DNA of 33,831 bases from positions 1-33,831 of IMG/VR virus record IMGVR_UViG_3300035145_004080, one strand, 5' to 3'. The stretch's first letter is position 1; each line of letters opens with the position of its first letter. This DNA comes from a virus. The notes beneath the pieces were generated by a model. It was given only the letters and a program-made list of their open reading frames with translations, did no database searches and was not told the DNA's origin. The position numbers were made by a program, and so were the translations under genes. Positions 2,621-32,652 of this stretch are shown one piece after another.

Positions 2621-4198
2621 TCAACTAGTAAAATTTTTTATCTTAATTTCGTCTACAAATTCTGAATGATTTTCCAGTTTAAATACTTTAAATATATAAT
2701 TTTCTTTTAAAGTACTTTCAATACTGCTATCCAAATTTTTAAATGAAACAAAATCAGGTGCAACCATTAAAGTTAATTTTGTTTTATTCTTTGCTATAGG
2801 TAATATTGTTTCAATTTTATCATAATTGTTAAAAAACTTTGTATTTTTTAAAACAAAAAGATTAGGAAGGTGCAACGGTGCACCTTTCAAAGAAATTAAA
2901 TCAATCATTAAACTTTTTTTAACGTTATTAAACAAGACTGAAATTTGGTCTGAATAATTCGAAAACATACCATGCGCATCAAAAGCTACAACAGCGTATA
3001 TATTAACTTCATTTTTTGAGAATGTTTTATCTTCAAATTTCATAATGTTTTTCTTGAATCTTTGAATAATATTACTACTAATTCTTTCATCATTTGACGG
3101 CGTGTAAAAGTCTGTATCAACACTAAAGTCAATGACACCAATCATCTGATATGGTTCTGTTAAACTTTTTCTTCTATAAATATGATAACCTTTAATGTCA
3201 TTTTGAATGTTTTCTGGTTTGCTCCATGATACAATTAGAGCATCTTTTTTATCATAGTATTTTAACCTTAATGACTGAGGTGCAGCTGGTCTTTCTTTCT
3301 CTTCACATATTATTCTTTCAATGCTTGGTTTGCCACATATTAAAAAATGATTGTTGATGTGATAATCATTCTCTTTGCAACAAACTCCATAAAACACAGG
3401 ATAAATTATATATTTGTAATCTTTTCCATAATTAACATGATAGTCTTTGACAATAGTTTTTTTTGCATTATTTCTTGCAGGATCTTCTCTCGCTGTTAGT
3501 ATTTCATTTAGAAAAAATTTTGAAGATATCTTTCTTCCACTCAAATGTTTTTCTACTAAAAAACCTATATTTGTAATAGACTTTTTAGTGTTTGTGTAAG
3601 AAGATGTTTGCTTAAACGGTACTAAGCCTAAAGTAAAGTTGCTTATATTATTTGTAATGTTTTCTTTTTCTATCTTATTGTTGTCGTTTTCTCTTGTTTT
3701 CTCCAAATCAAAAGAATTGCCAAAAACGCTGTTTTGAATATTTTCAAATATTAAGCCAGAAAACTTGTTGTTTATAAAAGCAGTGCTACTTAATGATATG
3801 TCTTTTATAAAGTCGTCTGAAATAGTAAGACCGCCTTCAGAAGTATCTAAACTTTCACGAATTATTTTTTTCAAATCTCCGCTATTTTTTATCAATTTAA
3901 CTTTTTCATAGTCATATTGATATTCTTTTATAAAGTTATAGTAATTTTCGTCTCCATTAGTGTTTAATAAATCATAAATACCCTCAAGATCAGTGTTTGT
4001 TAGAAAAGCTATTTTTTCTTCAGTTAAGTTTTCAAAGTAATTAATAGATATATTTACAAAGCTAGAATTTAAAGAATCGGAACTTTTTATTATGTTTTCT
4101 TCTCTTGAGGTTTCGTTTTCTTCATAAAAATTATATGTGTAGGCTATATTTGTTTTGTTTTTATGAGCAGGTAAATTGAAAAAATAAGAATTATTCAT
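2621..4198 (-). CDS. Putative virion protein with fibronectin type III-like domain, 525 aa
   Basis: A 525-residue protein with a recognisable fibronectin type III-like domain at about residues 304-425: a proline entry (RPAAPQSLRLKY), a conserved Trp strand (LIVSWSKP), the strand DIKGYHIYRRK, and a final NIYAVVAFDAHGMFSNYSDQ strand. I know a similar PPP...DIKxFxVFRR arrangement from marine T4-like phage structural proteins. Just before the domain lies a Cys/His-rich stretch (C273, C274, H280, H284, C288, C298), which could be a metal site or chance. The N-terminal 250 residues are Asn/Ser-rich and unrecognised. Its ATG follows the TAA of the 1618-residue gene by one base, so the two are probably translationally coupled. 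FN3 domains in phages usually sit on exposed virion surfaces and may bind host glycans or other virion proteins. Confidence 0.72.
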   Translation of the reverse strand: MNNSYFFNLPAHKNKTNIAYTYNFYEENETSREENIIKSSDSLNSSFVNISINYFENLTEEKIAFLTNTDLEGIYDLLNTNGDENYYNFIKEYQYDYEKVKLIKNSGDLKKIIRESLDTSEGGLTISDDFIKDISLSSTAFINNKFSGLIFENIQNSVFGNSFDLEKTRENDNNKIEKENITNNISNFTLGLVPFKQTSSYTNTKKSITNIGFLVEKHLSGRKISSKFFLNEILTAREDPARNNAKKTIVKDYHVNYGKDYKYIIYPVFYGVCCKENDYHINNHFLICGKPSIERIICEEKERPAAPQSLRLKYYDKKDALIVSWSKPENIQNDIKGYHIYRRKSLTEPYQMIGVIDFSVDTDFYTPSNDERISSNIIQRFKKNIMKFEDKTFSKNEVNIYAVVAFDAHGMFSNYSDQISVLFNNVKKSLMIDLISLKGAPLHLPNLFVLKNTKFFNNYDKIETILPIAKNKTKLTLMVAPDFVSFKNLDSSIESTLKENYIFKVFKLENHSEFVDEIKIKNFTS

Positions 4199-4199
4199 T

Positions 4200-7100
4200 T
4201 TATATTGCCTCTATCTTTATACTATAGTTTAAATTTTTCTTGTCTGGGTCAAAAGTATCTATGTAAAATTTTAAATTTGACATATTTTGAATATTAAATT
4301 TCTCAAAATAAAGGCCTCGCCTATCCTCTTCAGTAAGTGTATACTCTTCAAAGATGCTTAGTTCTGAAGAACTTTTAACATAAAACGGTAGTTTTTCTAA
4401 ATTTACATCAAAAATATATCGGTCGTATTCTTCTGTATTAAAACTTGTCATGCTTGACATTAAACTAGTAATACTTTTTCCAAGCATATTGATATTACTA
4501 AAGTTGACGTTGTTAATTTGTGAATTGAATTCTGATACGGTCATATTAAATATGTCAAGCATGTCATCTTCAGAAACACCTGACATAATCTCATTTACTA
4601 GCGTAGTATCTACAAATTTATCGTCATATATACTAATATCTTTAATTAAATCCATAGTTTCATTTAACGTAAATGATTTTTTATGATTATTAAAAATGTC
4701 AGAAACAGAAAAATTAACGAATATATCAAAATCATTATGTTCTCCTCTAAAATAGTTTTCTTTTAAAGAATAAATTTTGTCTTTTATTCTAGTAAAATTA
4801 TCTCTTTCATTTACAAATCTTAAACTAGAAAACCTATCTTCTAAGTTTTTTTCAAATATAACAACCTCACTATCTTCAAACTGTGCTAATTTTGTATTTA
4901 AATTTGACATATTTAAGCTAAATATTTTTGTCTTTGGAAGATAAATTTTATTATTGTTGTAAATATCTCTAGGCGTTATTGTTACTTTTATTAACGCATT
5001 CTCTTCAAGATTTTTAATATTATCATAACTTATATTAATTGCGTATATGTCTCTTTTGTTAATATTTGTTTTGTCTATTATTTTTTGTGTATTTTTATAA
5101 AAGTCAAAAACTCTATTTTCTTCAAAGTATTCTTCAATATTTTCATTATCAATATTCAAGTATACGTTTTCGTTAATTGCATTACATACAATTTTTTCTC
5201 TATTTAAGTACTTTATAATTAGATTTTGAAAATATACATTATTAATCTTATCAAAAAAGTCATTACTGTTAGTATTTAAATAACTTGAAACATCACTTAA
5301 ATTTTGATTAAATATCTCGTCTTCGAAATCTTCAACTTCTGACAAACTTAATAGAAATGCTCTTAAAAGATCAAAATTTAAAACTTGAAATACTTCTGAC
5401 TTTACTAATGTCTTTAAGCACAATTCAATTTTGCTTAAAAATAAATCATTTTTTGTATCGATATTGTCATTTAAAAATATACTATTGATTGCAGGACTTT
5501 CGCTAACAATAGTATCACTTAAACTTAAAACAGGATTACTAGCCCCTAAAGATATATTGCTAATATTTGTCTGTATGTTGCTTATGTCAATCATACTTGA
5601 TTCAAAAAATTCATTAGTAATGTTTGATATTTCTATTTTTTCTTCATCAAAACTATCAAAGTCATTGTAAAATTTTTCGTGTAACTTAATGTAGTCACCT
5701 ACAATTTCCCTAGAGTCAATATTAAATCTTAATTCGTTTAAAGATTCATCGTTTAAAATTTGGCTAAGACTTCTACTATTGTTTCGAAGCTTAAACGCAT
5801 CAATTATATATGTATCTTTGATTTCTGGGTTTTCATCAAAGAATTTTGCGTATAAATCATTTCTTAAATTTTCAAAATTTAAATAGTCAGAATATTGTGA
5901 AAATCTTTTAAGATTAAACCGTGTATTCAGTCTCTCAAGTACATTGTCATAATATAAAGAGTATATGTCAATTATTTCAATAACGTCGTTAATAATGTCA
6001 TCGTTTTCAAAGATTAAATTGTCAATATCCTGCTCAGTCTTGATTAGTTTTTTTGAATATTCTTTTACATGCGTTCTTAACAGCATTTGAATTTTTTTTG
6101 TTATTGAGTACAAAATATCATCTTCTCGATCACACAAGTCATCAAACTTGTCTTTCACAAAAATATGTTGTATGTTTTTTACATCCTGTACATCTCTATC
6201 GTCATCTAACTTTCCTTTTGTATTTTTTAAAACTAAACTTTGATCGCTTCCATTTTTTCCTACATACAAATGAAAAGCTATTCTATCTTCTAGAATAATT
6301 CTATTAGAAGTAAAAGAAGCAGACTCCGTATTTTCGTCAACTGTGTAACTGTCATTTTTAATTAAAAATATATTGTAGTTATAAATTTCATTTAAGACTT
6401 TATTTGATATTACATTTGTGTCTAAAAAATGTACAAAAGGTAATACGCAGTCTATCGTAATAGACTCAAAAGACAAAGTTGTAACTTTATTATCTTCATA
6501 TATTTTTCTTAGACTTTCAAGGTCACCGTAAGGAGTTTCTACACTCAGACCTAATTCTTTTTGAATCTTGTCAAAGTATTTATCTTTAGCGTCTTGTGTT
6601 GTAAAGATAAATACTTTGCTAAAGTTATATTTCTTTGAAAGGCTGTCAATATTATCCTTAGAAAAGACAGACTCGGATATTAACGTTAAAGCTTGAGATG
6701 ACTTTTTATGATTTTTTATTACTTTTTCTATGTCACTAGCTGTAGTATATTCATTACTTTCAAATAGTTTGTTATTATAAGTGAATTCATTAAGTTTGCT
6801 ATTTTTTAAGCTATTTAATGTATTTGTATCATTTTTTATTGCATTTTTTATAAATCTTTTTGCAATTACTCTCTTTATTTCGTTACTATTCTCGTCTCCA
6901 TTTATGTTTTTTTGAAAATAATTAAAAAGAAGACTTGACGTTAAAAAGTCTGATATTTCATACGTATTTATGTCAATGTTTGACGTATATTTAATAATGT
7001 CATTATGTATAGTATTAAGAAAATAGCTAGCTGTCAGATAACAATTATCAATAAAATAATTTGACATAAACTTTAAAAATTCATCAATTTGCGACGTGTT

Positions 7101-9056
7101 GTCCGTAAGAGTATTGTTTCTTAATATATTTTTAAAAGTTTTTCCATGATTTTTAATGTCTGTGTTTAATGAAAAATTTGACGTGTAGTCTGAGTCTTCG
7201 TCTTCACTTTTAGAAAACATCATTTTAAATAGCTTGCTGTCTTTGTTTGTCAAACTTAGCTGACTATCATTTTTTTCTGTAAAAGACAAAATATTATTCT
7301 TATGTATAGAATTTTTAATGTTCAAGATAATTTCATCAACTACTGATCTATCAAAATCTAGTCTATCTAAATTTACATTTTTGATTTTTTTTATTAAAGA
7401 GTCAACTTTAACTATAAATTTATTAAGATCAAGGCTTTTATTGTTTAAGTTTAATAATGAATTATTAAATTGGAATTTAACATTGTTTTTATTCCCATCT
7501 AAAAGATTGTTTCCTAATATTTCTCTTTCATCTACAACTTTATAAAAAGGCTTTTTGTTTACAAATATTTGTTCAAAAGGTTTATTAACTAAAGAGTTGT
7601 CTGCGTTTTGATCTAGAAATCGATTTTTTATATATTTTTCAGAAGTTGGATCTATATCATATCGAATCCATTGATCATACCCCGCTGCTTCTAGCATGTC
7701 TTGACGAAAGTCAGTTATAATCACGTCATTATTGGATGTAGCTTCATAATATATCCCATACTCGGGCGTAACAATTTCCAAACCAAAGTCAGTATTAACA
7801 GGACTATAGCAAGTAAGATTTGTTTTATAGTAATTACCATTAAATAAGTTATGAAGTTCTATTGCAGGATGATTAACAACTAAAACATCATCGATTGTAT
7901 GAGTTTCATTGTTTTCTGCGTTATATAAAGAAACAAACTTGTCTAAACCAATGTATAAACTTTCTTCACTGCTAACGTAACTCATTTCTTCGTTTAGCTT
8001 AGTTATAATATCCATGTCAGTATTTTTTATTTTAAAGAACAATCCATTTTCACCGTTTGTTTCAATAATACTATTTCTATTTGAAATAAATCCTAGATCA
8101 TTGTTTAATATAGGCTTGTTTTCTTTAATAAAATTTACGTAGTCAAAACTATTTCCAGAAATATATTCCCAGACTTTAACTTTATCATTTTCTCTTAACA
8201 CATTTGAGTAGTTGTTTTTTTCAAAGTTAAAAGAAAAGTTTGTCACATCATCAGTGTTATAATAAATACAGTTAGGCATCAATGTATATAAACTTCTAGA
8301 GAAATTTACAAAAAGCTGCGTGATCAAGCTAGTTTCGTCTATTTCGTTAATGCTATTGTTGTTAGAGTCGAAATCAATTAAACAATATTTTTTAAGATTT
8401 TGTCTGTTGATAAAAAAAGACTGTCTACTATTAGTTTCTAATACGTCTTTGCTAAAAAAGTCTTTTTTTCCTTCAAAAATAACAATATTATTTTCATAGT
8501 TTATTTTGCCTATTAGGTCTATATATTTTTTATGTATTAGGTTAATTTTTGTGCTTGTGTTATTAGAAATTAAGTCTTTTATGTTTTTTGTATAGCTGAT
8601 TTTGTTTAGGACATTTTTTCTTTCTTGAAGACCAGCAACAAGTTTGTTTTGAATTTCATTTATGTTTTGTAATTTTTGCTTTATCTTGTTTTTAACCAAG
8701 ATATACTTTTTATTTTTTCTCAATACGCTGTCAAAGTAATTTTCAACATTATCAAAAGTTAAATCAACGATATTGTTTTTGTGAAACTTTAGCACGTTGT
8801 CTAAGAAAAAAGTTTCCTCAAAAGGCAAGTAATAAATAATATCGAAACGATTAGAATCAGATGACAAATGATTGAATTTGTTTATATACTCTATGATTTG
8901 TGTATTTTCAATTTCAGACTCTGAAATTGATGAAATATTTTGTCTTATTTCACCTAAACTTATATTTAATGCACTTTCATCTACTCTTATATCTTGTGTG
9001 TTTATTTGTGTTATGTTGGTATTAAAGATATTTTGTATGTTAAACGTAGATGCCAT
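4200..9056 (-). CDS. Giant unrecognised putative structural protein, 1618 aa
   Basis: A single uninterrupted frame of 1618 residues. Composition is strongly biased to Asn, Ile, Asp, Lys, Ser and Phe, with alternating predicted-helical Lys/Glu/Asn stretches and beta-like stretches; I see no signal peptide, transmembrane segment or enzyme motif. It begins MASTFNIQNIFNTNITQINT, and no part matches a family I can name. It lies 2 bases after the stop of the 1010-residue gene and 1 base before the FN3 gene, so it is part of the same late run. The intact frame over 4.8 kb in an AT-rich sequence, where stop codons are common by chance, is strong evidence that it is real and under selection. A peripheral baseplate, tail or long appendage protein is the likeliest role, by position only. 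Confidence 0.75.
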   Translation of the reverse strand: MASTFNIQNIFNTNITQINTQDIRVDESALNISLGEIRQNISSISESEIENTQIIEYINKFNHLSSDSNRFDIIYYLPFEETFFLDNVLKFHKNNIVDLTFDNVENYFDSVLRKNKKYILVKNKIKQKLQNINEIQNKLVAGLQERKNVLNKISYTKNIKDLISNNTSTKINLIHKKYIDLIGKINYENNIVIFEGKKDFFSKDVLETNSRQSFFINRQNLKKYCLIDFDSNNNSINEIDETSLITQLFVNFSRSLYTLMPNCIYYNTDDVTNFSFNFEKNNYSNVLRENDKVKVWEYISGNSFDYVNFIKENKPILNNDLGFISNRNSIIETNGENGLFFKIKNTDMDIITKLNEEMSYVSSEESLYIGLDKFVSLYNAENNETHTIDDVLVVNHPAIELHNLFNGNYYKTNLTCYSPVNTDFGLEIVTPEYGIYYEATSNNDVIITDFRQDMLEAAGYDQWIRYDIDPTSEKYIKNRFLDQNADNSLVNKPFEQIFVNKKPFYKVVDEREILGNNLLDGNKNNVKFQFNNSLLNLNNKSLDLNKFIVKVDSLIKKIKNVNLDRLDFDRSVVDEIILNIKNSIHKNNILSFTEKNDSQLSLTNKDSKLFKMMFSKSEDEDSDYTSNFSLNTDIKNHGKTFKNILRNNTLTDNTSQIDEFLKFMSNYFIDNCYLTASYFLNTIHNDIIKYTSNIDINTYEISDFLTSSLLFNYFQKNINGDENSNEIKRVIAKRFIKNAIKNDTNTLNSLKNSKLNEFTYNNKLFESNEYTTASDIEKVIKNHKKSSQALTLISESVFSKDNIDSLSKKYNFSKVFIFTTQDAKDKYFDKIQKELGLSVETPYGDLESLRKIYEDNKVTTLSFESITIDCVLPFVHFLDTNVISNKVLNEIYNYNIFLIKNDSYTVDENTESASFTSNRIILEDRIAFHLYVGKNGSDQSLVLKNTKGKLDDDRDVQDVKNIQHIFVKDKFDDLCDREDDILYSITKKIQMLLRTHVKEYSKKLIKTEQDIDNLIFENDDIINDVIEIIDIYSLYYDNVLERLNTRFNLKRFSQYSDYLNFENLRNDLYAKFFDENPEIKDTYIIDAFKLRNNSRSLSQILNDESLNELRFNIDSREIVGDYIKLHEKFYNDFDSFDEEKIEISNITNEFFESSMIDISNIQTNISNISLGASNPVLSLSDTIVSESPAINSIFLNDNIDTKNDLFLSKIELCLKTLVKSEVFQVLNFDLLRAFLLSLSEVEDFEDEIFNQNLSDVSSYLNTNSNDFFDKINNVYFQNLIIKYLNREKIVCNAINENVYLNIDNENIEEYFEENRVFDFYKNTQKIIDKTNINKRDIYAINISYDNIKNLEENALIKVTITPRDIYNNNKIYLPKTKIFSLNMSNLNTKLAQFEDSEVVIFEKNLEDRFSSLRFVNERDNFTRIKDKIYSLKENYFRGEHNDFDIFVNFSVSDIFNNHKKSFTLNETMDLIKDISIYDDKFVDTTLVNEIMSGVSEDDMLDIFNMTVSEFNSQINNVNFSNINMLGKSITSLMSSMTSFNTEEYDRYIFDVNLEKLPFYVKSSSELSIFEEYTLTEEDRRGLYFEKFNIQNMSNLKFYIDTFDPDKKNLNYSIKIEAI

Positions 9057-9058
9057 TT

Positions 9059-12000
9059 TTAAACACTCTTGCTTTTGTTATTTTTTATAATTCTAATAGA
9101 TGATAAATTGTCTATAGTATATATTTTTTCATCCAAGATTTCTAAAACGCTTGTCGTATAGTCTTTTCTAAAAGACTCATTGTCAAAATTTAGAACTGAT
9201 ACATTATATGCAATTTTAATATCTTTTAAAAGATTATATCCGTTATTGATACATATTTCAAAAAACTCTCTAAGATACAAATAGTGATTTGTTATAAAAA
9301 AGTTATGATTATTTTTCTTTGTATCATAAATTAATTCAATATTATGAGACTTTTTATTTTGAGAAATCTTAAAGTCACTTTCACTAATACCCTTAAAAAG
9401 ATAATCGCACGTTTTTTTATGTTTATTGTAATATGCGAAAGAAGGCCGTAGCAGTCTATTTTCTTTGTTGTCGAAGAAAATTAGATCGTTTTTAGAAAGA
9501 GACTCTGAATATTCTTTTGTAGTTATAGAATAAAGATAAGGAACTAAACATAGTGTTACACTAATAGCCTTAATGTCAGAGAAATTTGAAACTTCATCAA
9601 GAATATTTGCTGAAAGTTTTATGTTATTAAACAAAACACCTATCTCTTCTATGTTTATAATATTTTTACTTTCTTTTGTTTTTATTGACTTTATTGAGTT
9701 TGTATACGAATTTTCTTCTAATGATACAACGTTAGATGTATTATTGTTTTCTAATCTTATAAATTCTAATTTTCCTTCGTTATGAAATTTGTCCTGGATT
9801 AATCCTGACTTGACAGCCTCGAATTTTTTACGTTCGTCTGAATCGATAACATCATCGATTTCTTGTTCTCTTATTAGTTCTATAAAAATATTATCGTCAT
9901 AAAGACTAATTCTTTTAAAGATATCTTGACGTTTAGAATATTTTTTGTGTATATATTCGACGATACAATTTCTAAAAATACCATCATCAATTTCAGGAGA
10001 GAAGTAAGATTCTTTTATTTTTAAAAAATTACCATATGAAAAATTTGGATTAATTTGAAATACATAATTGTAAAACAACAAACTTGTTTTATTAACTTCT
10101 TCTAGGTCATTAAAAGCATCTACTATGTTGTATTTTTCATCAATACCTACATTTTTATATTTTGATATTTCGTATGGAACAGGTATTATTCTAATCTCTA
10201 AGTCTTCTTTTAAATTTATTTTTTCATTTAATGAATTATTTTTAGATATTATATCTTCTTTTTTAAGGCTACTTTTTTCTTTCAGAAAGTCAAATCTTTT
10301 ATTTTTACTTTTACTTAAAAACTGTATTGACTCGTAATGATTTGATTTTATTTTTTCTAAAAATTCTTCGCTAAAAACAAGTCTATTATTTATTATAGTA
10401 CCTTCGTTTCTTATTTGCGACGTATAATTTTTATAAAAAGTTGTACCTTCAATACTAGTCTTTAATGAAACGTTTATATAAGCATTGTTGATAAATTCTC
10501 GAACAATATTGCTGCTATTTTCACCAATGACACTCTTATATCCAAAACTATCAGCAAGTTCAGAAAGACTTTGAATGTTTTTAATAACTAAACTTGTAAT
10601 ATTTGACACTGAATTGTTTGCAGGACTCAAATTAACATTTTTAACTATATCAATATCTATCAAGTCTTTTATAGCAAGGTTAAATTCTCTAAGCTTAAAA
10701 AATTTCTCTATATTTAAACCTCGCGCTTTGTCTTTGTTGTCAAAATCAAAAGTAAAGTTCCTAGAAGTAGCAAGACTACTTGAAGTTTGTGTGCTAATAT
10801 GGCCTATTTCTAGACTAATGTTTTTAATTACGTAAATATTTCTTGCATCAACATAAAGCACAGTTTTACCAATATTTCTGTTAAAATATTGATTTAAAGG
10901 AGTAATCCTATCTAATTTGCTGTAAACTATTTTAAGTTTTTCATCTACATAGAAGCTTAAAATGTCTTTATTGTTTATTTTTAAGCTTCTAATATATAAA
11001 TCATCAAAAAAGCTGTTAGCAAAGTTTGTATCAAACTCTAAACGTAAAGAATCAAAATTTTCAGAAAAACTTGCATCGCAATCAATCGTTACCAAAGACA
11101 ATAATTCTGTTTCACACTTGTCTTTGTTTGTATTGAAAATCTTATAAATAAATGATGAACTACGATTATATTCTTTGTATATTGACTTTGCGATGCTAAA
11201 TGATCCTGCTTCAGATGCTACAGACAAATTAAAAGATATACTTATTTCAAAATTAAATGTATTTACTTCGTTTTTATAATCACGAAATATATTTTTAGCG
11301 ATAAGATTAGTTGACTCATTTAATTGAATTAAAAGAATTGTAAGGTCGTCATTAACACTAACATCATGATAAATTTTCTGATGTGGTATATTGTTATTTG
11401 ATATATATTTATAAATAACAGAAGCATTGTGTACGTCGCTAATGTTAAGTGATGGTAGAATTAAACTAATAGTATTGTCTAGATCATCATATGTAGATGT
11501 AATACTTAACATATAATTTTCAAGCAGCAAGTCCATAACGTTATACGCGTCAGAAATAATCGGTTCTTGATAAATAGAAGCAAAGTTTTTAACAATAAAA
11601 TTAGAGTCAAAAATAGCTTCATTGTTTAATTTTTTAACAATTATTCTTATTCCACCACTTTGTAGATTTTTTATTAAATTAGTCTGTTGTTTAGAAAATA
11701 TAAAATATATCTCGTCGTCAATTAGTCTTATATTTGATTTATTGATGTTAAAATATGAATTACTATTTCCGGCGTTTTCTGAATACTTAACGTTTTCTTG
11801 TTTTCCTTCAAAATTTTCTGAATAATATCGAAGCAATTCATTATTTAAATAATTTGTCGAATATCTGTTGTAGTTTTGTGTGTTTGACAAGTCTTTATTT
11901 GGAAACGTTGTATTAAACGTGTTATTGTTTTGTACGATAACTTCAATTTTTTCTATTGTGCTAAAAATATTAGAGTTTTGTTTTAGACGAACAAGAAAGT

Positions 12001-12091
12001 ACACATCGTTTGAATTTTCAACTCTTTTAATCGCAGTAATAAAATTATCGTTTAATTCTATTTGCTTAAAAAACGTATTATCTAATTTCAT
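9059..12091 (-). CDS. Large unrecognised putative structural protein, 1010 aa
   Basis: A 1010-residue frame starting MKLDNTFFKQIELNDNFITA. The first 300 residues read as beta-rich (for example VYFLVRLKQN, then IYFIFSKQ), later parts have Lys/Asn/Glu-rich helical stretches, and the C-terminal 150 residues include an aromatic strand-like region ending LSSIRIIKNNKSKSV. No catalytic motif, membrane segment or known domain is visible. AGGA about 8 bases before the ATG is a good ribosome binding site that overlaps the end of the preceding 380-residue gene's untranslated gap. It is followed after 2 bases by the 1618-residue gene, and both share composition and probably assembly. A virion role is inferred from location; a non-structural role cannot be excluded. 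Confidence 0.73.
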   Translation of the reverse strand: MKLDNTFFKQIELNDNFITAIKRVENSNDVYFLVRLKQNSNIFSTIEKIEVIVQNNNTFNTTFPNKDLSNTQNYNRYSTNYLNNELLRYYSENFEGKQENVKYSENAGNSNSYFNINKSNIRLIDDEIYFIFSKQQTNLIKNLQSGGIRIIVKKLNNEAIFDSNFIVKNFASIYQEPIISDAYNVMDLLLENYMLSITSTYDDLDNTISLILPSLNISDVHNASVIYKYISNNNIPHQKIYHDVSVNDDLTILLIQLNESTNLIAKNIFRDYKNEVNTFNFEISISFNLSVASEAGSFSIAKSIYKEYNRSSSFIYKIFNTNKDKCETELLSLVTIDCDASFSENFDSLRLEFDTNFANSFFDDLYIRSLKINNKDILSFYVDEKLKIVYSKLDRITPLNQYFNRNIGKTVLYVDARNIYVIKNISLEIGHISTQTSSSLATSRNFTFDFDNKDKARGLNIEKFFKLREFNLAIKDLIDIDIVKNVNLSPANNSVSNITSLVIKNIQSLSELADSFGYKSVIGENSSNIVREFINNAYINVSLKTSIEGTTFYKNYTSQIRNEGTIINNRLVFSEEFLEKIKSNHYESIQFLSKSKNKRFDFLKEKSSLKKEDIISKNNSLNEKINLKEDLEIRIIPVPYEISKYKNVGIDEKYNIVDAFNDLEEVNKTSLLFYNYVFQINPNFSYGNFLKIKESYFSPEIDDGIFRNCIVEYIHKKYSKRQDIFKRISLYDDNIFIELIREQEIDDVIDSDERKKFEAVKSGLIQDKFHNEGKLEFIRLENNNTSNVVSLEENSYTNSIKSIKTKESKNIINIEEIGVLFNNIKLSANILDEVSNFSDIKAISVTLCLVPYLYSITTKEYSESLSKNDLIFFDNKENRLLRPSFAYYNKHKKTCDYLFKGISESDFKISQNKKSHNIELIYDTKKNNHNFFITNHYLYLREFFEICINNGYNLLKDIKIAYNVSVLNFDNESFRKDYTTSVLEILDEKIYTIDNLSSIRIIKNNKSKSV

Positions 12092-12103
12092 ATTGTAATC
12101 CTA

Positions 12104-13246
12104 TTATTCAGCGACCAAAATAAACATATTTAAAAAAGAGTAATATGAAGATAGAATATAATCTTTTCTATTTGTACCTCTAGAATTGCCATAATTAGCA
12201 ATTAAATTATAATTAAAGTTATAGTCACCTAAATTTTTGCTATCATTAAAAAAGCCGTCAATGTCTTCTTCGTTGTTCCTAGAAAGCTTTATTTTCCCGA
12301 TCAAATAAACGCTTTTTAATTTCCCGTCAGAATTATCATAAAAGTCACCTAATTCTAAAAACATTAACTTTTCAATTTCTCCGCTACGTGGCTCTGTATT
12401 TCTGATTTCAAACATTTCTAATAGAAATGTATCGCTTTCTGTAACATCTTTTAATTCATAGCTTTTTGTAAAGATATTCTTGTTTTTTTCAAGCTCGTTA
12501 ATAATGTCAATTACAGATTGGCTCCTGTCAGATTTGTCTTTAAAGTCAACAATACCGTTATAGTTTTTTAAAACTACATTAAGATTCGAAAGCTGTCTGT
12601 ATTCTGCCAAACCATTAAAGTCTTCGTCTTGAAATAAAGCCTGACCGTCTGAATTTTGAGGAATTAGTTTAAGATAACTGGTTTTTTTCTCCAGCCTTTT
12701 GTCAAATGCTAAGATTGGAATATTTTGAATACTTTCAAAGCTTTTTTTAACAGACGAATATTTTAAAGACCTAGTATTGTTAATGAAGTCAAATACACCG
12801 TTAATATAATTGCCTGAGACCTTAAACTCCAAAGTGTCAGTCTTGGCGTAGTTTTTTGTCAGAAGTATTTTTTTGTTTTTAATTTTATTCGAAATAGAAA
12901 TGTTATTATCAATTATAGACTTTGCAGATGAAATGTAATCGGTTAAATCATCTTGATCTGAAAAACTAAAATCATATTTTAATGAATAACTTTTTTCTAT
13001 TTTGTTTTCTTCAACAATATTGTGAATTCCGCTTATAGATGACTCAAAAGGAAAATAAAAGAAATCAGATTCAGATACTTTTACTTTGTTGTCTTTTGTC
13101 TTTTGAAAATCAATATTATAAACTATAGAAGCATCACTTACAGTTGCATATTTATAATTGATTTCGCTTCTTGATATTTGTTCTCTACCATTATCAGTTA
13201 GAACATAATCAAATAAACGCGACTTTTTGTCTAATATACCTGACAT
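12104..13246 (-). CDS. Putative virion protein with LTxxGRExI N-terminal module, 380 aa
   Basis: A 380-residue protein starting MSGILDKKSRLFDYVLTDNG, with the motif YVLTDNGREQIS at residues 14-25. This is the same module, at the same distance from the N-terminus, as in the 248-residue protein at 1838-2584 (DAVLTERGRELIA). After the motif comes a mixed strand region (YKYATVSDASIVYN) and then about 300 residues without a recognisable domain. I recall MSGIxDKKxRxxDxxxTxxGR starts in marine T4-like phage structural proteins. Its C-terminus is hydrophobic (FLNMFILVAE). It lies between the 1858- and 1010-residue genes in the structural run. The ribosome binding site is weak (GAGAAT). Function beyond a probable virion role is unknown. 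Confidence 0.68.
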   Translation of the reverse strand: MSGILDKKSRLFDYVLTDNGREQISRSEINYKYATVSDASIVYNIDFQKTKDNKVKVSESDFFYFPFESSISGIHNIVEENKIEKSYSLKYDFSFSDQDDLTDYISSAKSIIDNNISISNKIKNKKILLTKNYAKTDTLEFKVSGNYINGVFDFINNTRSLKYSSVKKSFESIQNIPILAFDKRLEKKTSYLKLIPQNSDGQALFQDEDFNGLAEYRQLSNLNVVLKNYNGIVDFKDKSDRSQSVIDIINELEKNKNIFTKSYELKDVTESDTFLLEMFEIRNTEPRSGEIEKLMFLELGDFYDNSDGKLKSVYLIGKIKLSRNNEEDIDGFFNDSKNLGDYNFNYNLIANYGNSRGTNRKDYILSSYYSFLNMFILVAE

Positions 13247-13263
13247 ATTTAATTCTCACATTT

Positions 13264-13283
13264 TATATTTAACATTAAATATA
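13264..13283. repeat. Perfect AT-only palindrome in the gap before the 380-aa gene
   Basis: Two 9-base arms, TATATTTAA and TTAAATATA, are exact reverse complements separated by CA. The palindrome occupies much of the 50-base gap between the stop of the 1858-residue gene and the ATG of the 380-residue gene, the largest gap among the giant genes. The 2-base spacer is too small for a simple RNA hairpin unless inner pairs open. It may be a protein-binding site, an mRNA-processing site or chance in AT-rich DNA. Confidence 0.5.
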
Positions 13284-13296
13284 TCATATCTTTAAT

Positions 13297-16200
13297 TTAA
13301 GTATACAAGCTTTGCATATCTGAGTTATCTTCTGAAGTATTTGATTCTATAAAAGGATAATACGACCTTGCATACTTATCCATGTTTGTGCCGACAAATA
13401 AAGCTCTTTCTGAAGCTATGTCTTTAGTAATTTGATTAAAATATTCGTCATAATATTCTTTTTCAACACAGTGCTGTTCTATTATCTCTTTGTTCTTTCC
13501 GTATAATACTCTAGAGTAATTCTGTGTATCGTATTTTAAATCTTTAAACTGACCAAAATGATTTTTATTGACAAGATAAGAAAATTCAACTGGGTTCAAT
13601 TCTAATACACCATATCTGTAACCATCAAATTTGTCAATTGGATACTTAAACTTTCTAGTCTTTCTATATCCGTAAAAGAAAGATTTCGCAACTAAAGAAT
13701 TTTCAGGTCTCTGTATATTGCTTACAATTGGCGTTCCAAAACTAGTCAAACTGTTATCGACAATTTCAATTCTCTTGTACGACTTTGGCATTAAAATAAT
13801 TTTCTGGTTTCCATTTTCATTTGTTGTAGAAAAGTCTAATTCAAAATAATTTTTTTGAATATTGTCATTAATATTGTAAACTTTTTCGCTAGCATCTTCA
13901 TATATTCTAATTACATCACTTTCATTAATTCCAATCAAATACTGACTCTTAGACAAATAATCAGTATTTAATATTCTATTGTTATAAATTACTCCTAATA
14001 AATTCAAATGTGACGTTTCAAACGCGTATATATTGTTTTTAATTGTAAAAATTGCTCTTATTCCAGTATTGACAAAATAATTGCCTCTTTTCTTATAAAT
14101 AAAAGGCGTGTAATAATATACGTTATCTTTTATTTCAATATTATAACCATTCTTTGTAAACTCTACTGACTTTTTGCTAGCATAGTCTGAATCTGTTAAA
14201 ATATTCTTTTGTATCAAAGTCAAATTATTATTTTTAATAAATTCTGAAGAGTTTAACGGCATATTTTCAAATTGGTATTCGTTATATACTACATCTTTTT
14301 TGTCTTCTGTATGAGAAAGCTCATATAAAGATTCTTTAATGTTAAAATTTGTAGTTATTATGTTATCGTCAAAATTAATATCGCTATTTCTCATTTCTAA
14401 CAATGTAAACGGAAAAGTATCTTTTAATACAATATTCTCTTCGTTTACATCTACAAATTTAGTAATATCTAATTTTCCAATTATAAGTTCTTCAAGTCTA
14501 GCAATCTTTGGGTTTTCATTTGAAAGATCAGTAAAGTTATTATTAGAAATATAATTGATTACATTATAAGTATATGAATGATCATCGCTGTTCTCTGCAT
14601 CACTTCCATTAAGCGCATTATCTCCATTTAACGCAATAATTTCAGAATGTCTGAAAGGAACTACGATCTGGATTGTTTTTTTATTGTCTGACTTGACAAC
14701 AAGATAAAAGTCTCTATCAATTATTTCATCGTCTTCAATGGTTTGTATAGATACCTTCTTGTTCTTTTTAAATACACATTCTTCATTCTCTCCTATCTTA
14801 TAGAAATCAAAATATTCTTGTGGTATGTTTATATTTTCAAATCCTTTTTTAAACCATAAGATCATTTTGTTATATAACTCGCTAGCGCTATCTTTGTCTA
14901 GCTCTATTACTATGCACCATGCCGGAATATTTTGATATCTTAGTAAGGGTGTATTTCTTTTTTTAAAATTAAACATGCTATTTTGCATATAAAATTCTAC
15001 AGGTATTTTTAAAAATTGTAACGAAGAGAATTCAGGCAAAATAGTTTCATAGTTTTCAAAGTTTATAGAATATAAATTATCTTCTGGAACAAATTTGATA
15101 TTTGTATTATAAGTAGGCAAAATGCCTCTTGTAGAATAGTCATTGACAACAACAACGGTATTATTATTAACTTCTTCTGTAGTAATTTCTATTGATTCTG
15201 TAGGTAAAAACAAGTCTTTTATTGTAAAAAAGTCGTATCTATTTTCTAACTCACTTTCTAGATCAACTGTAACGTTATTATAAAAATAGTCATTATTGAT
15301 CGAATAACTTTGTTCATCATAGTATAAATTGACAGGAAATGCACTAGGAACTTCCGAGTAAAATCTTTTATCATCAAATTTTTCTTTATTTATTGAAATA
15401 TAAAATTTTTCATGCCAGTCTTTTATAATACTAACATTCTGAGGCAAACTAGCAATATCATCCGTAGTAAATTTGTCTGAAACAATAATTTTTACGCTAT
15501 TGTTAAAACCGTTGTAAATATCATTTGTGTCTCTTCTAAAAGTTTCTCTTGTCAAACCTAATATGTCATGATGAATAGACACAGCACCCGGAAAAATGCT
15601 GTCTGCCAAAAGACTTTTTGAGTATATGTTAGATGATATACTTAGATTTTCTTTATTGAGACTTGTTTTTCCTTCTTCTATACTTTGAAGCGTATTGTTT
15701 CCTACAAATACTTTTTTAATATTAGTAGACTGAGATGATTCATTTTTCTTGACTTCTTTGATTTCTTTACCGTATAACGTTATTTTTATTTTATCATGAA
15801 ATTTAATATGTGATGCGGTCGTGTTAAAGTTTGAAAAACTGCTAATTCCTACGATAATATCATCTTCAGGCTTACGAACATCGCTTGATAAAATCTTTCC
15901 AGATCTGCTCGAAACAATATTTGTTTCGCTTTCATCTTTGTTGTTTATATTGTTAAGTAGCCTTGAGTCATTTTTAATTGAAACTCCATTTCCTTCGACA
16001 ATAGAAATTTCGTCAATTAACATGTTCTCTGAAGTTGTATCGATCGATTCAGCAGAAAAGTCTTGTACTAAGTCTGTCAAAGTTCTTTCAAACAATATGC
16101 TACCTAATTTATTTCCGAAGATAATATCTCCATTTAGATCAACTTTGGTAATCGTAAAATCGTTAGGTACATGTATATATTTTTTTGATTCGTCAAATGT

Positions 16201-18873
16201 ATTATCTAAAAACTCTACATCATACGACATATAATTGGTTTCTTCTCCTGTAAAAGTAATTTTTTCAATTAAGTGTATAGGAGACCCAAAATGATTTATT
16301 TTTGAGAAATATATTCCAAATAAAATTAAGTTTATGAATAGATTACGTTTTTCTGTTGTACTTAAAATATTAAACAAATTTCCTGCAATATTGCCAGGCT
16401 CATGACCTAAGTCTATCAAAGACATTTCTGTTTTATCTTCAGTGATATTTCTTATTTGACGATATTTAGCACAATAAGCATCATTACCTAATATCGCTGT
16501 ATTAATATAATTAATATCATTAACTGCGTCATACACTAAGATATCACCGAGTGTATATGTGTTATCTAGACTTTCTTCGTGTTTAAATCTAAAATTAATT
16601 CCATTTGTTTTAAAAAGCGAGAGTGCTTTTACGCTAGGATCGATCACTTCCCCAGAAGCGTTGGAAAAGATTATAAAGTCAGGCAAATACGTTGCAGGAT
16701 CAGCAAATAAGCTAAAATTTGATTCACTAGACTCAAAATACAAAGAATTATCTTCATCTCTAATGTCGCTGTAATCCTGAACTACAGCATCGAAAAGTTG
16801 AAGCATTTCTCTGTTACTAATTAGTAATCTTTTGATTATATTGACTTGTGGTATCGTCTGACCTTGAAATAAATTAGAAATACAAGAAAAATTAGACTCT
16901 GATACGTTGTTGTTTATGTCTCTAGAAAAGCATGTATTGAATGTCGAGAATCTTCTTTCTTCTACGTTAATTAAAAGATCATCACTTGCGTCTAGTACAG
17001 TTAAACCATTATAATCTTCAAAAGAAATATCAGAGTTTAACTTAGTCTTTCCAAAAAAAATGCTACTTTCTGTAATTAATTCTTTTTTTGAATTTAATTT
17101 TTCTGATGTTATTTTTGTAAACTTCTTTTTAAATTGAGTTTCGTTATCAATACTATTGCTATAAATATTATAATTTAATACACTACTTGGGGTAGAGTAT
17201 ATTAAATACGAATTATTTTGTGTATTAATACTTTCATTGTTAGAAAGATTTTCAAGATAATAAAACGAAGAATTATCTATTTCGACAATATTGTTATTTT
17301 CTTCATCTATTTCCAGCTGTGTTATTATGCTGCTTTGAATAGAATCAAAAACCAGTGAATCTTCTGTTCCGTTAATGTCAAGTATGACGTTATTGACCTC
17401 AGTAAACTCTCCTTTTAATCTATCAAATTTCAAAGGACTATTCAGATCTGAGAAATTGTTATCTAAATAAGATTCGTTAATCTCTCCTGTATATTGACTA
17501 ATTGTTTGAGTATCTGTGTCTTTTTTGACTCTAAATCCGTAAGGTGAGAGGGGTTTTATTTTTTCGTCGTTTTCTTTTAAAGACTCGGATTTTAAAAGAT
17601 AGAAATTAGCACCAACAATATTGTATTCGCTTTTATTTAATGTGATTAATTTTTCATTATTAAAATCATTTTCTGTACTTACTGTTTCTGTATTACCAGT
17701 ATATACAGGAATTTCAGATTTTGCAGAAATTTTTCCTTCAAATACTACTTTCTCAAGCAAGAATTCTCTTGCAATATAATCTTTGAGTGATATTAAATGA
17801 TCTTTGTTCGGGTTCCATCTTTTATTGTAAGGAAACCCATAAGTTTCAGTTAACTTGTTAAACTTTTGATTAAAAGTATTATCTTTTAAATAGTTGAATC
17901 TGTCGTAATACGGGCTGTGCGTAATAAATGATTTACTTATAAATTTATCTAAAAACGTATAAAGATGATTAATAGTATTTGTATTATCAACTGTACCATT
18001 GTAATTATGGGTTATTGAGTTAGGAAACGTGATATCTGAATTCGCTTTGAAAGAATTAATGTGATACTCGCTGTCATCTAAGTTATACTCCCATCTTTTA
18101 AGATTGTTATTCCAATATGAATTAGTTAAAGAATTAGAAGTAATAGAGTATGAGTTACTTCCTGTAAAATTAAATTGATTATTAAAAGAAGTGCTATCGT
18201 CAATTAAATCAATGTCATCATTAGGCAAGTCACTGTTTCTAGACAACAACATTGTGCTTACAAGTTGACAGTCACTTTCGTTTGTAAAGTCTAGTTCAAT
18301 AACGAAAGACGTCTGATCTCCTAAATAGTAGTTTTCGTCATCGTACAATGTGTTAGAAATAAATTCATTGGAAAATTTTTCTTCTAAAATATTATCTATA
18401 AAAGGCTTGTAGACTTCTTGTTTTGTATTCTCATTTAACTCTTCAAATATTTGATTTCTTTCTTTTTTTGATAATGTAGAATTAAAAGTTTGAAGCGATA
18501 ATTCATTAGGCGTATCAATAAGATTATTGTTGACAAAGAAATTACTGTTAAGTGTATTTTCGTATTCTGCTAATACTACTCCGTCTGCTCTTATTTTTTC
18601 GTCTGAAGTTATATAAAATTTATTAGCATCATTTTCTAATGGTACTACTGTAACTCCTAAAATATTGTTTACACCTGTTTTTTCTTCAAAAACATATGTG
18701 TTTGCATCATCGAAGTAGTCATGACCTGTAAAATCACTTTGTACGGGAGTAGTTTTAATTTGAAAATATTTTCCTGCAATCGACTCTTTTTTTCTTGATA
18801 ACTTTTTATAAGAAGAGTTTAGTAACCCAGACTTTGTTATATTACCTGATGACTTTATTCTTTTTTTTGGCAT
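13297..18873 (-). CDS. Giant putative baseplate/tail structural protein, 1858 aa
   Basis: The longest gene in the window, 1858 residues without interruption. The N-terminus is basic (MPKKRIKSSGNITKSGLLNS), then the chain becomes Asn/Asp/Ser-rich and acidic. Near the C-terminus lie LELNPVEFSYLVNKNHFGQF and KDLKYDTQ, which resemble an FGQFRDMLEQ-type element that I remember from very large structural proteins of marine T4-like phages; this match is from memory. No enzyme motif or membrane segment is visible. Its ATG overlaps the TAA of the 320-residue gene (TAATG), so it is translationally coupled to it. Placement right after the baseplate wedge genes suggests a peripheral baseplate or appendage component, which is inference. 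Confidence 0.76.
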   Translation of the reverse strand: MPKKRIKSSGNITKSGLLNSSYKKLSRKKESIAGKYFQIKTTPVQSDFTGHDYFDDANTYVFEEKTGVNNILGVTVVPLENDANKFYITSDEKIRADGVVLAEYENTLNSNFFVNNNLIDTPNELSLQTFNSTLSKKERNQIFEELNENTKQEVYKPFIDNILEEKFSNEFISNTLYDDENYYLGDQTSFVIELDFTNESDCQLVSTMLLSRNSDLPNDDIDLIDDSTSFNNQFNFTGSNSYSITSNSLTNSYWNNNLKRWEYNLDDSEYHINSFKANSDITFPNSITHNYNGTVDNTNTINHLYTFLDKFISKSFITHSPYYDRFNYLKDNTFNQKFNKLTETYGFPYNKRWNPNKDHLISLKDYIAREFLLEKVVFEGKISAKSEIPVYTGNTETVSTENDFNNEKLITLNKSEYNIVGANFYLLKSESLKENDEKIKPLSPYGFRVKKDTDTQTISQYTGEINESYLDNNFSDLNSPLKFDRLKGEFTEVNNVILDINGTEDSLVFDSIQSSIITQLEIDEENNNIVEIDNSSFYYLENLSNNESINTQNNSYLIYSTPSSVLNYNIYSNSIDNETQFKKKFTKITSEKLNSKKELITESSIFFGKTKLNSDISFEDYNGLTVLDASDDLLINVEERRFSTFNTCFSRDINNNVSESNFSCISNLFQGQTIPQVNIIKRLLISNREMLQLFDAVVQDYSDIRDEDNSLYFESSESNFSLFADPATYLPDFIIFSNASGEVIDPSVKALSLFKTNGINFRFKHEESLDNTYTLGDILVYDAVNDINYINTAILGNDAYCAKYRQIRNITEDKTEMSLIDLGHEPGNIAGNLFNILSTTEKRNLFINLILFGIYFSKINHFGSPIHLIEKITFTGEETNYMSYDVEFLDNTFDESKKYIHVPNDFTITKVDLNGDIIFGNKLGSILFERTLTDLVQDFSAESIDTTSENMLIDEISIVEGNGVSIKNDSRLLNNINNKDESETNIVSSRSGKILSSDVRKPEDDIIVGISSFSNFNTTASHIKFHDKIKITLYGKEIKEVKKNESSQSTNIKKVFVGNNTLQSIEEGKTSLNKENLSISSNIYSKSLLADSIFPGAVSIHHDILGLTRETFRRDTNDIYNGFNNSVKIIVSDKFTTDDIASLPQNVSIIKDWHEKFYISINKEKFDDKRFYSEVPSAFPVNLYYDEQSYSINNDYFYNNVTVDLESELENRYDFFTIKDLFLPTESIEITTEEVNNNTVVVVNDYSTRGILPTYNTNIKFVPEDNLYSINFENYETILPEFSSLQFLKIPVEFYMQNSMFNFKKRNTPLLRYQNIPAWCIVIELDKDSASELYNKMILWFKKGFENINIPQEYFDFYKIGENEECVFKKNKKVSIQTIEDDEIIDRDFYLVVKSDNKKTIQIVVPFRHSEIIALNGDNALNGSDAENSDDHSYTYNVINYISNNNFTDLSNENPKIARLEELIIGKLDITKFVDVNEENIVLKDTFPFTLLEMRNSDINFDDNIITTNFNIKESLYELSHTEDKKDVVYNEYQFENMPLNSSEFIKNNNLTLIQKNILTDSDYASKKSVEFTKNGYNIEIKDNVYYYTPFIYKKRGNYFVNTGIRAIFTIKNNIYAFETSHLNLLGVIYNNRILNTDYLSKSQYLIGINESDVIRIYEDASEKVYNINDNIQKNYFELDFSTTNENGNQKIILMPKSYKRIEIVDNSLTSFGTPIVSNIQRPENSLVAKSFFYGYRKTRKFKYPIDKFDGYRYGVLELNPVEFSYLVNKNHFGQFKDLKYDTQNYSRVLYGKNKEIIEQHCVEKEYYDEYFNQITKDIASERALFVGTNMDKYARSYYPFIESNTSEDNSDMQSLYT

Positions 18874-19835
18874 TAATCAATTTCTCCTGCAAAAGCAATC
18901 GATTCAGAGTTTATTTGAATACTGTTATCAGTATCTATTCCTGACGTCAATTTTAAAGTTTTTATTTCTTCTATACTATCATTAAACGGTAAAATGTTAT
19001 TATTTTCTTCTGAAATATATGCAATATTTCTACTTAAAAGTGGTACGTATGAAAAACTTCCTGCATCATTTTTTAAAACTCTATACGTGACTCCATTTGC
19101 AAACATTTCTTCATATTTGAATTTTCTTTTGACAAGTGTTGCATTTTTATCAAAAACAACTTCTTCTTCTAAGAAAGGCTCCGAAATATCACTTCTTAAT
19201 AAATCCGTATTGTTATCTTCAATAATTTGAATAACATCTTTAATAAAAATCTGTCGTCCTCTTGCGTCTTCTCCGTTATTGCATATGTTAGAATCTATTC
19301 CTAACAAAGATGACGTTGTAGTAAGAGATCCTCTGACTTCGTCTATTTGGCCTAATATGCTAATAGAATTATGAAATCTTTGCGATGAATATGCATTATA
19401 GTAGTTAGGATAATACACATCTTTAAAGTTTCTTGTAACTTCTAAGTTTTCTAGATCTTGAAATGGTGAAAGGAACAAATCGTCAAAGTCTTCAGAAGAT
19501 TCAGTGCCTATAGTTTTTTTTACAATATAATGATTAATGCAATCAATATTCATATCTTTGGCATTTTCATTAAAAGATATAAACTCACCTTTATTCAATA
19601 CGCTTGCATCTTTTTTATACTCTGGAAAATTTACTATATTGTTTTTAAATAACTTAGACAGGACGCCTCCGGGTATAGCTATTTTCAACTGTTTATCAAA
19701 ATCATCTTTTTCTTCAATAAAGTTTATTTCATTACTTATAAGATATTTTTCTTGAAACGTAGCATTATCTTTGTCAACAAAGACAAACTTTTCATTTGGT
19801 TGTTCTATAAAACATATTTTTTCATTAATAAACAT
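18873..19835 (-). CDS. Unrecognised putative baseplate-associated protein, 320 aa
   Basis: A 320-residue protein starting MFINEKICFIEQPNEKFVFV. The N-terminal 60 residues look like short beta strands; the middle contains YYPNYYNAYSSQRFHNSISI and a GEDARGRQIFIKDVIQIIED stretch; the C-terminus is acidic. No domain is recognised. The gene starts 2 bases after the stop of the LamG/gp7-I-like gene and ends in a TAATG overlap with the 1858-residue gene, so it is bracketed by structural genes and probably co-translated with both. In P2-type gene order the gene after I is a tail fibre gene (H), but this protein shows no fibre repeat, so I do not call it that. Confidence 0.65.
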   Translation of the reverse strand: MFINEKICFIEQPNEKFVFVDKDNATFQEKYLISNEINFIEEKDDFDKQLKIAIPGGVLSKLFKNNIVNFPEYKKDASVLNKGEFISFNENAKDMNIDCINHYIVKKTIGTESSEDFDDLFLSPFQDLENLEVTRNFKDVYYPNYYNAYSSQRFHNSISILGQIDEVRGSLTTTSSLLGIDSNICNNGEDARGRQIFIKDVIQIIEDNNTDLLRSDISEPFLEEEVVFDKNATLVKRKFKYEEMFANGVTYRVLKNDAGSFSYVPLLSRNIAYISEENNNILPFNDSIEEIKTLKLTSGIDTDNSIQINSESIAFAGEID

Positions 19836-22800: not shown

Positions 22801-23314
22801 ATCGAAAAGAATAGTTTTCTGTTTGTGGTGACAAATAACCTTCGTTTAATTTATTGTTATTAAAATCGTTAAGCAAATATCCTTTTTTATCTTTTATAAG
22901 AACTTTTTCTGAACCAGAAAACTTTATACCACCTGTATGTTTAGGATAAATGTTTTCCAAGACATATTCTGTATAACCATCTAAGTCATTAAAATATTCA
23001 TACACTTCGTTTTCTTTTTTGTCATACGGATAGTTTATAATACTCTCAAAAGAGTACGATACCTTGTGTACTGCTGAATCGAAAAAGACATGATTTGAAA
23101 AGTCAGAGTAGTCTATATTTTTGAATTGTGAAGAAGAAAGTATTTCATTCGCTGTAGTTTTATCAGAAATATTTTTAATATCTTTAAACGCGCTTGTGCT
23201 TATATCTCTATAATTGTCGTTTTCTGTAATGTTAATTTTACTTTTTTCTTCTTGCGCTACTGTAGTAAAATTATTTTTCTTAATATTTTTAAAATAAGAG
23301 TCCAGATTTTTCAT
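19838..23314 (-). CDS. Baseplate wedge protein of gp7 / P2 gpI type with LamG-like domains, 1158 aa
   Basis: A 1158-residue protein with several parts. Residues about 127-371 look like a concanavalin A/LamG-type domain (SFRFWLNIAN at 169, GALDEFIYLDRLSQGKVVKL, then LYLKFNEPGG and DSSGNKYHGLI). Residues 487-602 hold the tail-protein-I/gp7-like core: ICLIWARFFDQLKLHVDAIS, LVWKKILVNSQDIIRSKGTR, then HSINSLIKSIGV. The KSKGTRxSIxxLI pattern is the hallmark I use for the P2 gpI/gp7 wedge family. A second LamG-like domain is likely between about 680 and 920 (EGEISSVAVWRKKLSFEEVK). The wedge protein bridges gp6 to the tail fibres in the baseplate. The ATG overlaps the end of the preceding gene by TAATG. 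Confidence is good for the wedge-core assignment and moderate for the exact LamG limits. Confidence 0.76.
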   Translation of the reverse strand: MKNLDSYFKNIKKNNFTTVAQEEKSKINITENDNYRDISTSAFKDIKNISDKTTANEILSSSQFKNIDYSDFSNHVFFDSAVHKVSYSFESIINYPYDKKENEVYEYFNDLDGYTEYVLENIYPKHTGGIKFSGSEKVLIKDKKGYLLNDFNNNKLNEGYLSPQTENYSFRFWLNIANVNINTDNQVIFKKIKNDQTKEGFVCFISKSGIQWNLNYLIVLGNNYFLETHTLDSDVINNNFHVTINCSVNDIKKIKTTFLINGNLTDSTTISSLDFELFSNDFQKKDVEFIIGNSEQFEYNNIQYNNFSGALDEFIYLDRLSQGKVVKLQKDDNIFTNDFVKLYLKFNEPGGDYTNSNLVIDSSGNKYHGLILDNENNTITDTSNLKSFSSMLSKEIQKYSPVIIGSFQEIVNRRSGLLTEARKYDINNANIIFKLIPKHYFITSGNFENKPDYISQDLPEANVVTIGSQDSNLGFEANNKNNNLSNICLIWARFFDQLKLHVDAISNLQKCDYDDINNEKYVNAQIQHLCKLYNVDFVPIFQNISKEKVKSRNLENDDVISEHDFVKVQNLVWKKILVNSQDIIRSKGTRHSINSLIKSIGVDINKFISFNEKSFNNMLDLSRLKSKKEEIDIYNMNFFDKTSQSLQTQFSETGIPINKPFFEIENIKYKDNDILKSGLSKDWSIESIFEFNNLIKNDKYIKSIVKNKKDHLDFNLQQSIFRLDVKNNCFLNLYAKFKNSDSDFCDLVLDIDPINVNPLYRKNIVLENVNIFDVANYVCVSYEYDTNSDDEFDILQIDLHFDKYNTYDTTAFYKNVSEQIKIRKNIYSLDALSFYNNEISLRVGEYSYDIDDVDINRINNVFENLTPTAFEGEISSVAVWRKKLSFEEVKNHIQDILSIKDENLNFKGTDNNCIVKVINEKIQIRNNNIYNISTSNIYDIYTYNSLNNIRLYCNENSNFENSFRKIKINRSYKDVNAVNNIDNNLITIGSFSKEENRRHYDNKNENPSDKLLNTHFKNEIDLFSFDFVSSKMINNQINKILLNLDEFNNNFLTEQNRTDYDYQKLRRIRDEYFSNFDEKKLFDYDSLYLIFKYFDNILNEMLTEMIPSKLSFKGFNFVYESHILERFNYNYKNKIYDLEKHDAYYVQTPRISSKRNKY

Positions 23315-32501: not shown

Positions 32502-32540
32502 TTTAATATGCCTTTCTTGCTTCTGTTTTTATTAATTATT

Positions 32541-32548
32541 CATTTATA
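32541..32548 (-). promoter_or_regulatory. Possible late promoter before the 164-aa fibre gene
   Basis: The minus strand has TATAAATG 39 bases before the ATG at 32501, one base off the T4-type late consensus TATAAATA, and lies just after the intrinsic terminator that ends the previous transcript. The location is right for a new start recognised by a gp55-like sigma factor. AT-rich sequence makes a chance match likely, so support is modest. Confidence 0.45.
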
Positions 32549-32573
32549 TATGTATATTCATTATTTACAACAT

Positions 32574-32600
32574 AAAAAAACCCGATATAAAATCGGGTTT
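32574..32600 (-). terminator. Intrinsic terminator of the long fibre gene
   Basis: On the minus strand AAACCCGAT, a 5-base loop and ATCGGGTTT form a perfect 9-bp stem that runs into a T-tract (TTTTTTT when the stem's last bases are counted with those after it). It is the only GC-bearing hairpin in the gap and sits 53 bases after the stop at 32653. This is the clearest terminator in the window. Confidence 0.88.
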
Positions 32601-32613
32601 AAATCTAAATAAT

Positions 32614-32637
32614 CTTGACCTCTTTGACAAGGTCAAG
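32614..32637 (-). repeat. Second hairpin upstream of the terminator
   Basis: CTTGACCT and AGGTCAAG form a perfect 8-bp stem around an 8-base loop, between the fibre stop codon and the terminator stem. It has no T-tract of its own, so it is probably a 3'-end stabilising structure or an auxiliary part of a tandem terminator. Confidence 0.6.
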
Positions 32638-32652
32638 TTATAGTGTTATTTG

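Follow-up and report, generated by a model that had tools for sequence, protein, structure and literature searches.

Three giant proteins of 1858, 1010 and 1618 aa (below, giants 1, 2 and 3), encoded in the tail module of an uncultivated virus, belong to three real, co-inherited conserved families with a fixed gene order in that module, and giant 1 is an insertion-expanded form of a protein of 740-1045 aa. We believe that the giants probably have a structural role in the outer part of the baseplate wedge, in T4-like phages with contractile tails that make up a large uncultivated clade.

Results

Layout of the tail module

The window, i.e., the whole stretch of DNA analysed, is a 33.8-kb IMG/VR virus record; it is AT-rich (GC 24-36%), and its main genes lie on the minus strand. 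The closest isolates are Flavobacterium phage vB_FspM_immuto (Immutovirus; below, immuto) and Microcystis phage Mel-JY01, with about 25% identity in gp6 and 38% in the TerL of a related contig. The relevant genes are as follows.

29929-30699, minus: late sigma factor, gp55-like (weak PHROG match; resembles the immuto and Mel-JY01 counterparts)
27706-29535, minus: conserved protein of 609 aa in the hub/gp5 position (function inferred from position)
27082-27663, minus: gp25-type baseplate wedge protein (PHROG baseplate wedge, E 3e-6)
25222-27078, minus: gp6-type baseplate wedge protein (PHROG baseplate wedge, E 5e-12)
23314-25206, minus: conserved tail-module protein of 630 aa
19838-23314, minus: wedge protein of 1158 aa with a LamG-like domain (residues 157-314)
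18873-19835, minus: protein of 320 aa immediately ahead of giant 1, in the position and of the size of T4 gp8
13297-18873, minus: giant 1, 1858 aa, intact ATG frame
12104-13246, minus: protein of 380 aa between giants 1 and 2
9059-12091, minus: giant 2, 1010 aa, intact ATG frame
4200-9056, minus: giant 3, 1618 aa, intact ATG frame
2621-4198, minus: protein of 525 aa with a fibronectin-III-like (FN3) domain, directly downstream of giant 3
1838-2584, minus: protein of 248 aa, also present in immuto and Mel-JY01
243-1820, minus: second protein of 525 aa, with a C-terminal domain that several consecutive proteins of immuto, Mel-JY01 and LR756508 also have

The initial annotation described three intact frames of these lengths over about 13.5 kb, following the wedge genes in the same operon. 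The frames are present exactly as described, on the minus strand, and together occupy 13,467 bases; the masses are 215, 118 and 190 kDa for giants 1, 2 and 3 (about 523 kDa summed). They do follow gp25 and gp6, with three genes (630, 1158 and 320 aa) in between. From gp6 through the last 525-aa gene, neighbouring genes lie -1 to 50 bases apart, and the coding strand shows no terminator-like site within the run of giants; both facts are consistent with one transcription unit, as the operon assignment had it. T4-type late promoters (TATAAATA) number 16 against 9.6 expected, a marginal enrichment, and are mostly on the non-coding strand. The same run of genes, from gp6 onward, encodes 8,890 aa compared to 3,662 aa for T4 gp6-gp12 (2.4 times as much, with at least six extra conserved families), which bears out the remark that this is far more protein than a T4 baseplate needs.

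Conservation across uncultivated lineages

Relatives were reached via gp6 and then via giant 1 and giant 3 profiles; all those bearing giants are metagenomic contigs. The order gp25, gp6, 630, 1158, 320, 1858, 380, 1010, 1618, 525, 248, 525 is found again in seven IMG/VR lineages (G001, G002, G003, G006, G010, G012 and G013), where G002 and G013 end within the module at contig ends and the gp25 gene is unmatched in G012 and G013. The order from 1158 to the last gene (1158-320-1858-380-1010-1618-525-248-525), with divergent members, also occurs in clades found through the 1158-aa protein.

Leave-one-out profiles, from which the window was excluded, match its giants 1, 2 and 3 at 3.9e-70, 4.2e-17 and 2e-67, and the reversed-sequence control gave no match. 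Seed profiles built on the window, G001, G002, G003 and G006 recognise the members in G010, G012 and G013, which are outside the seeds, at E values of 0, 1e-199 and 2e-203 for giant 1, 5e-128, 8e-62 and 1e-62 for giant 2, and 1e-197, 7e-136 and 3e-151 for giant 3. The relatives retain full-length frames of all three giants, and a comparison of G012 with G013 gives a dN/dS of about 0.2-0.4, above that of gp6 and with dS near saturation; the retained frames and these ratios together indicate that the giants are coding. Their pairwise distances track those of gp6 (r = 0.88, 0.73 and 0.86 for giants 1, 2 and 3), while the giants diverge 1.56-1.72 times as much as gp6 and evolve faster than any other gene of the module. 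The idea that they might be peculiar to this sequence is not supported: all three are conserved families, and giant 1 is an enlarged version of a smaller protein.

Growth of giant 1 by insertion

Scanning with the 1158-aa protein brought up 80 loci, and iterated giant-1 profiles recognised 71 proteins, nearly all of them one or two genes past the 1158-like gene, with no match in the reversed control; the family spans 740-2494 aa. In hhalign with seed profiles only, giant 1 and the short forms (740-894 aa) share three collinear blocks, which score 99.2, 94.7 and 90.2%, with unrelated-family controls at or below 0.2%. The blocks correspond to residues of about 13-439, 995-1099 and 1798-1858 of the window protein and are separated by insertions of about 555 and 700 residues; thus, compared to the core, giant 1 has roughly 1,250 inserted residues. 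In the tree of the 1158-aa protein, every form of at least 1858 aa falls into one clade (support 88/94), its sister being a locus with a 1126-aa form (L110), and the window itself sits on a long branch (1.71). Giant 1 is accordingly a protein that has grown, in one clade, through large insertions. Members at the greatest distance (1359-1422 aa) have a looser link to giant 1 (two blocks at 78.6 and 30.3%), and the split or duplicated members stay below 40%.

The latter members are from six loci (L147, L148, L149, L171, L172 and L139), in which the family apparently consists of two adjacent genes (568+867 and 615+861 aa) or of a tandem duplicate (959+980 aa). The sole host-linked record found is a 6.5-kb contig (L096, NZBH01000044.1) with the 1158, 320 and giant-1 genes, assigned to an archaeal MAG (ARS1414) and probably mis-binned. 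An archaeal host was considered on this account and rejected: the contig carries tail-module genes only, mis-binning is possible, and the lineage has a bacterial-type late sigma factor.

Giants 2 and 3

The giant 2 family has a roughly constant size (793-1104 aa) and is the most divergent of the three; its outer-clade members align at 92.9% in hhalign. Since its relatives lie beyond plain BLAST, membership rests on the leave-one-out profile, a 98.6% hhalign score and position. Members of the giant 3 family are very large in all clades (1475-1880 aa), and the outer-clade homologues (1826-1880 aa) align at 99.7% over 529 columns. In one locus (L140), a 1158-like gene (707+462 aa) and a giant-2-like gene (469+365 aa) are both broken, by sequencing error or decay.

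Searches for known relatives

The giants had been described as undescribed proteins with no recognisable domain. This holds for Pfam, PHROGs and PDB sequences, where no convincing match was found for the three giants or their relatives, and it agrees with tblastn of the window's giants against 50,697 phage records, which gave no match in a set that possibly lacks records very close to the window. In these libraries, homology to characterised structural proteins was found for none of the three. A resemblance of the giant-1 core motif to other marine phage structural proteins was considered and is unsupported: tblastn with the motif-block consensus, members of 740 and 1422 aa and two giant ones found no match in the same 50,697 records.

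Comparison with T4 proteins by hhalign has low power and was discarded, as even the gp6 versus gp6 control reached only 1.5%. Profiles detected no gp7-gp12 homologues in the window, the positions of the giants included, and the hhalign comparison to the same effect is the one that failed its gp6 control. Because of this failure, the 320-aa and 1158-aa proteins are not tied to T4 gp8 and gp7; the 320-aa protein has no homology to gp8 detectable by this low-powered comparison. Counterparts of the 1158-aa protein are proteins of 1265-1400 aa in immuto, Mel-JY01 and LR756508.

Structure models

Structure prediction, recommended in the initial annotation, was carried out on parts of giants 1 and 3; the models obtained are too weak to name a fold. 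AlphaFold2 gave a mean pLDDT of 34 for residues 1-1165 of giant 1 (11 sequences), which was left out of the fold search, and of 46 for residues 430-1618 of giant 3 (8 sequences), with helices confident in parts only. The latter model suggests a mainly helical core. With this weak partial model, Foldseek (viral, PDB) returned no match at E <= 0.001 and VIA-align none at Z >= 5; such a null is not evidence of a new fold.

Genome context in relatives

The whole-genome context was read from two related 133-kb contigs, G010 and G012. The TerL, portal and major head protein of G010 are T4-type (phrog_2 at 8e-51, phrog_213 at 4e-75, phrog_138 at 2e-74), and it also encodes an SbcC-like subunit, a DnaB-like helicase and a ribonucleotide reductase. 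The closest to it by TerL are immuto, LR756508 and Mel-JY01 at 38%; cyanomyoviruses rank after immuto. Contractile sheath genes are seen in both contigs, the window being a fragment without a sheath gene. Each has two tandem sheath genes, of 1103 and 1519 aa in G010 (82227-90142, L075) and about 1044 and 1783 aa in G012 (75272-83802), compared to about 660 aa in T4 and open frames of 716 aa in immuto and 818 aa in Mel-JY01; the enlargement of the tail therefore extends past the baseplate in related genomes. The double sheath genes are followed in both contigs by five unannotated frames of about 930-1970 aa.

Discussion

The window resembles the T4 baseplate wedge module (gp53, gp5, gp25, gp6-gp12) in its gp25 and gp6 homologues and similar gene order, and its relatives share T4-like packaging and head genes. 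Immuto and Mel-JY01 have the 1158-like wedge protein, the 248-aa protein and the C-terminal domain of the second 525-aa protein, as the window does; they differ in a single sheath gene and in the lack of recognisable 320, 1858, 380, 1010, 1618 and FN3-525 families. Between the 1158-like and 248-like genes they have a 403-aa gene or nothing, whereas the window has six genes, three of them giant. Giant profiles found no match in the whole immuto and Mel-JY01 genomes (for giant 1, the profile covered the N-terminal 1165 residues). Considering that the closest isolates build baseplates without recognisable giants, the latter are not universally required.

The site of the giants between the wedge and adhesin-like genes is fixed, their distances track gp6, and they diverge faster; this fits parts of the structure that are constant but face outward. 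We presume that the giants together with the 320-aa and 380-aa proteins would form an outer ring around the wedge of gp25, gp6 and the 1158-aa protein. The ring would link the wedge to adhesin-bearing proteins, which may be the FN3 525-aa protein, the 248-aa protein, the second 525-aa protein with its docking-type C-terminal domain, and a 976-aa protein of the relatives; it could bear receptor-binding parts and relay the contact signal to the wedge. Four points are what we infer here: presence in the virion, a peripheral location, the copy number and the signalling role; six copies of each giant, if present, would add about 3.1 MDa. Of the two structures proposed initially, a large peripheral one would agree with the position, the co-inheritance with gp6 and the faster evolution. 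An unusual attachment apparatus finds no direct support: the searches revealed no receptor-binding, enzymatic or fibre-repeat signature in the giants, and Pfam and PHROGs no match to known fibre or enzymatic domains.

It is tempting to take the giants themselves for receptor-binding adhesins or tail fibres projecting from the baseplate: their evolution is the fastest in the module, length differences in giant 1 come as whole insertions, and adhesin-like genes adjoin directly downstream. We consider this unlikely, given that the gene order is fixed and the distances track gp6, which is not cassette swapping, and that the core of the partial giant 3 model appears mainly helical, in contrast to the usual trimeric beta fibres. 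Furthermore, the block-wise comparison of the module families for shared domains (2012 of the 3250 pairs were compared) reached a best probability of 13.5%, with no cross-family or internal repeat signal. A different proposal is that these are ordinary T4 wedge proteins (equivalents of gp8, gp9, gp10 and gp11) that have diverged and enlarged, with nothing added in kind. The module does sit where T4 has gp7-gp12, the 320-aa protein agrees with gp8 in size and place, and this lineage also has enlarged sheath genes, yet these are recognisable. Such an origin is conceivable and, in our opinion, rather doubtful: no sequence or fold match to T4 proteins was found (the T4 test had low power), and the gap between the 1158-like and 248-like genes of the closest isolates speaks against it. 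That the giants assist assembly without entering the virion, or are ejected into the host, would accord with their having no known domains, with nothing direct in its favour; we find it very improbable in view of their fixed place within the tail module, their co-inheritance with a wedge protein and the cost of about 523 kDa of helper protein.

A bolder proposal can be made tentatively: the six families (320, 1858, 380, 1010, 1618 and FN3-525) might constitute an extra layer of the baseplate whose fold content is new, an outer ring on the megadalton scale that no studied contractile phage has; together with the double giant sheaths, it would define a distinct, heavily built tail type in the uncultivated clade. 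If the giants do form an outer baseplate layer, contractile-tail architecture is more varied than the cultured models would lead one to expect, and host contact in these phages is arranged in a way that is unstudied. In any case, three "hypothetical" frames now count as conserved families, each at a set position in a tail module widespread among uncultivated phages, and they can be used as metagenome markers of the clade.

Two known systems are comparable in part. The adsorption complex of Klebsiella phage RaK2 (Alcyoneusvirus) includes ten tail fibre proteins, seven of which are depolymerases (PMC10253068); we liken it to the present case as an elaborate multi-protein tail adsorption apparatus of a large phage, the difference being that the giants have no depolymerase signature. 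Pseudomonas phage PaBG has a two-component tail sheath of about 58 kDa each (PMC7412058) and so shares two sheath genes per phage with the window's relatives, where the sheaths are of 1044-1783 aa.

Additional observations

The FN3-like domain of the first 525-aa protein matches titin (E 5e-9). The C-terminal domain of the second one (residues 440-525) is repeated in five successive Mel-JY01 proteins (L021, 28975-37921) and is also found in several proteins of immuto and LR756508; it is a candidate for a common baseplate-docking domain. The 380-aa (12104-13246) and 248-aa (1838-2584) proteins have in common a short and weak N-terminal motif, D..LT..GRE.I (hhalign 56%), also present in a 219-aa protein of immuto; this N-terminal region is possibly a common docking region. 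At the edge of the window (32007-33831), two repeat-like frames rich in Gly, Ala, Asn and Asp (164 aa, and 392 aa open at the contig end) have a GC content above the rest of the window and appear fibre- or decoration-like.
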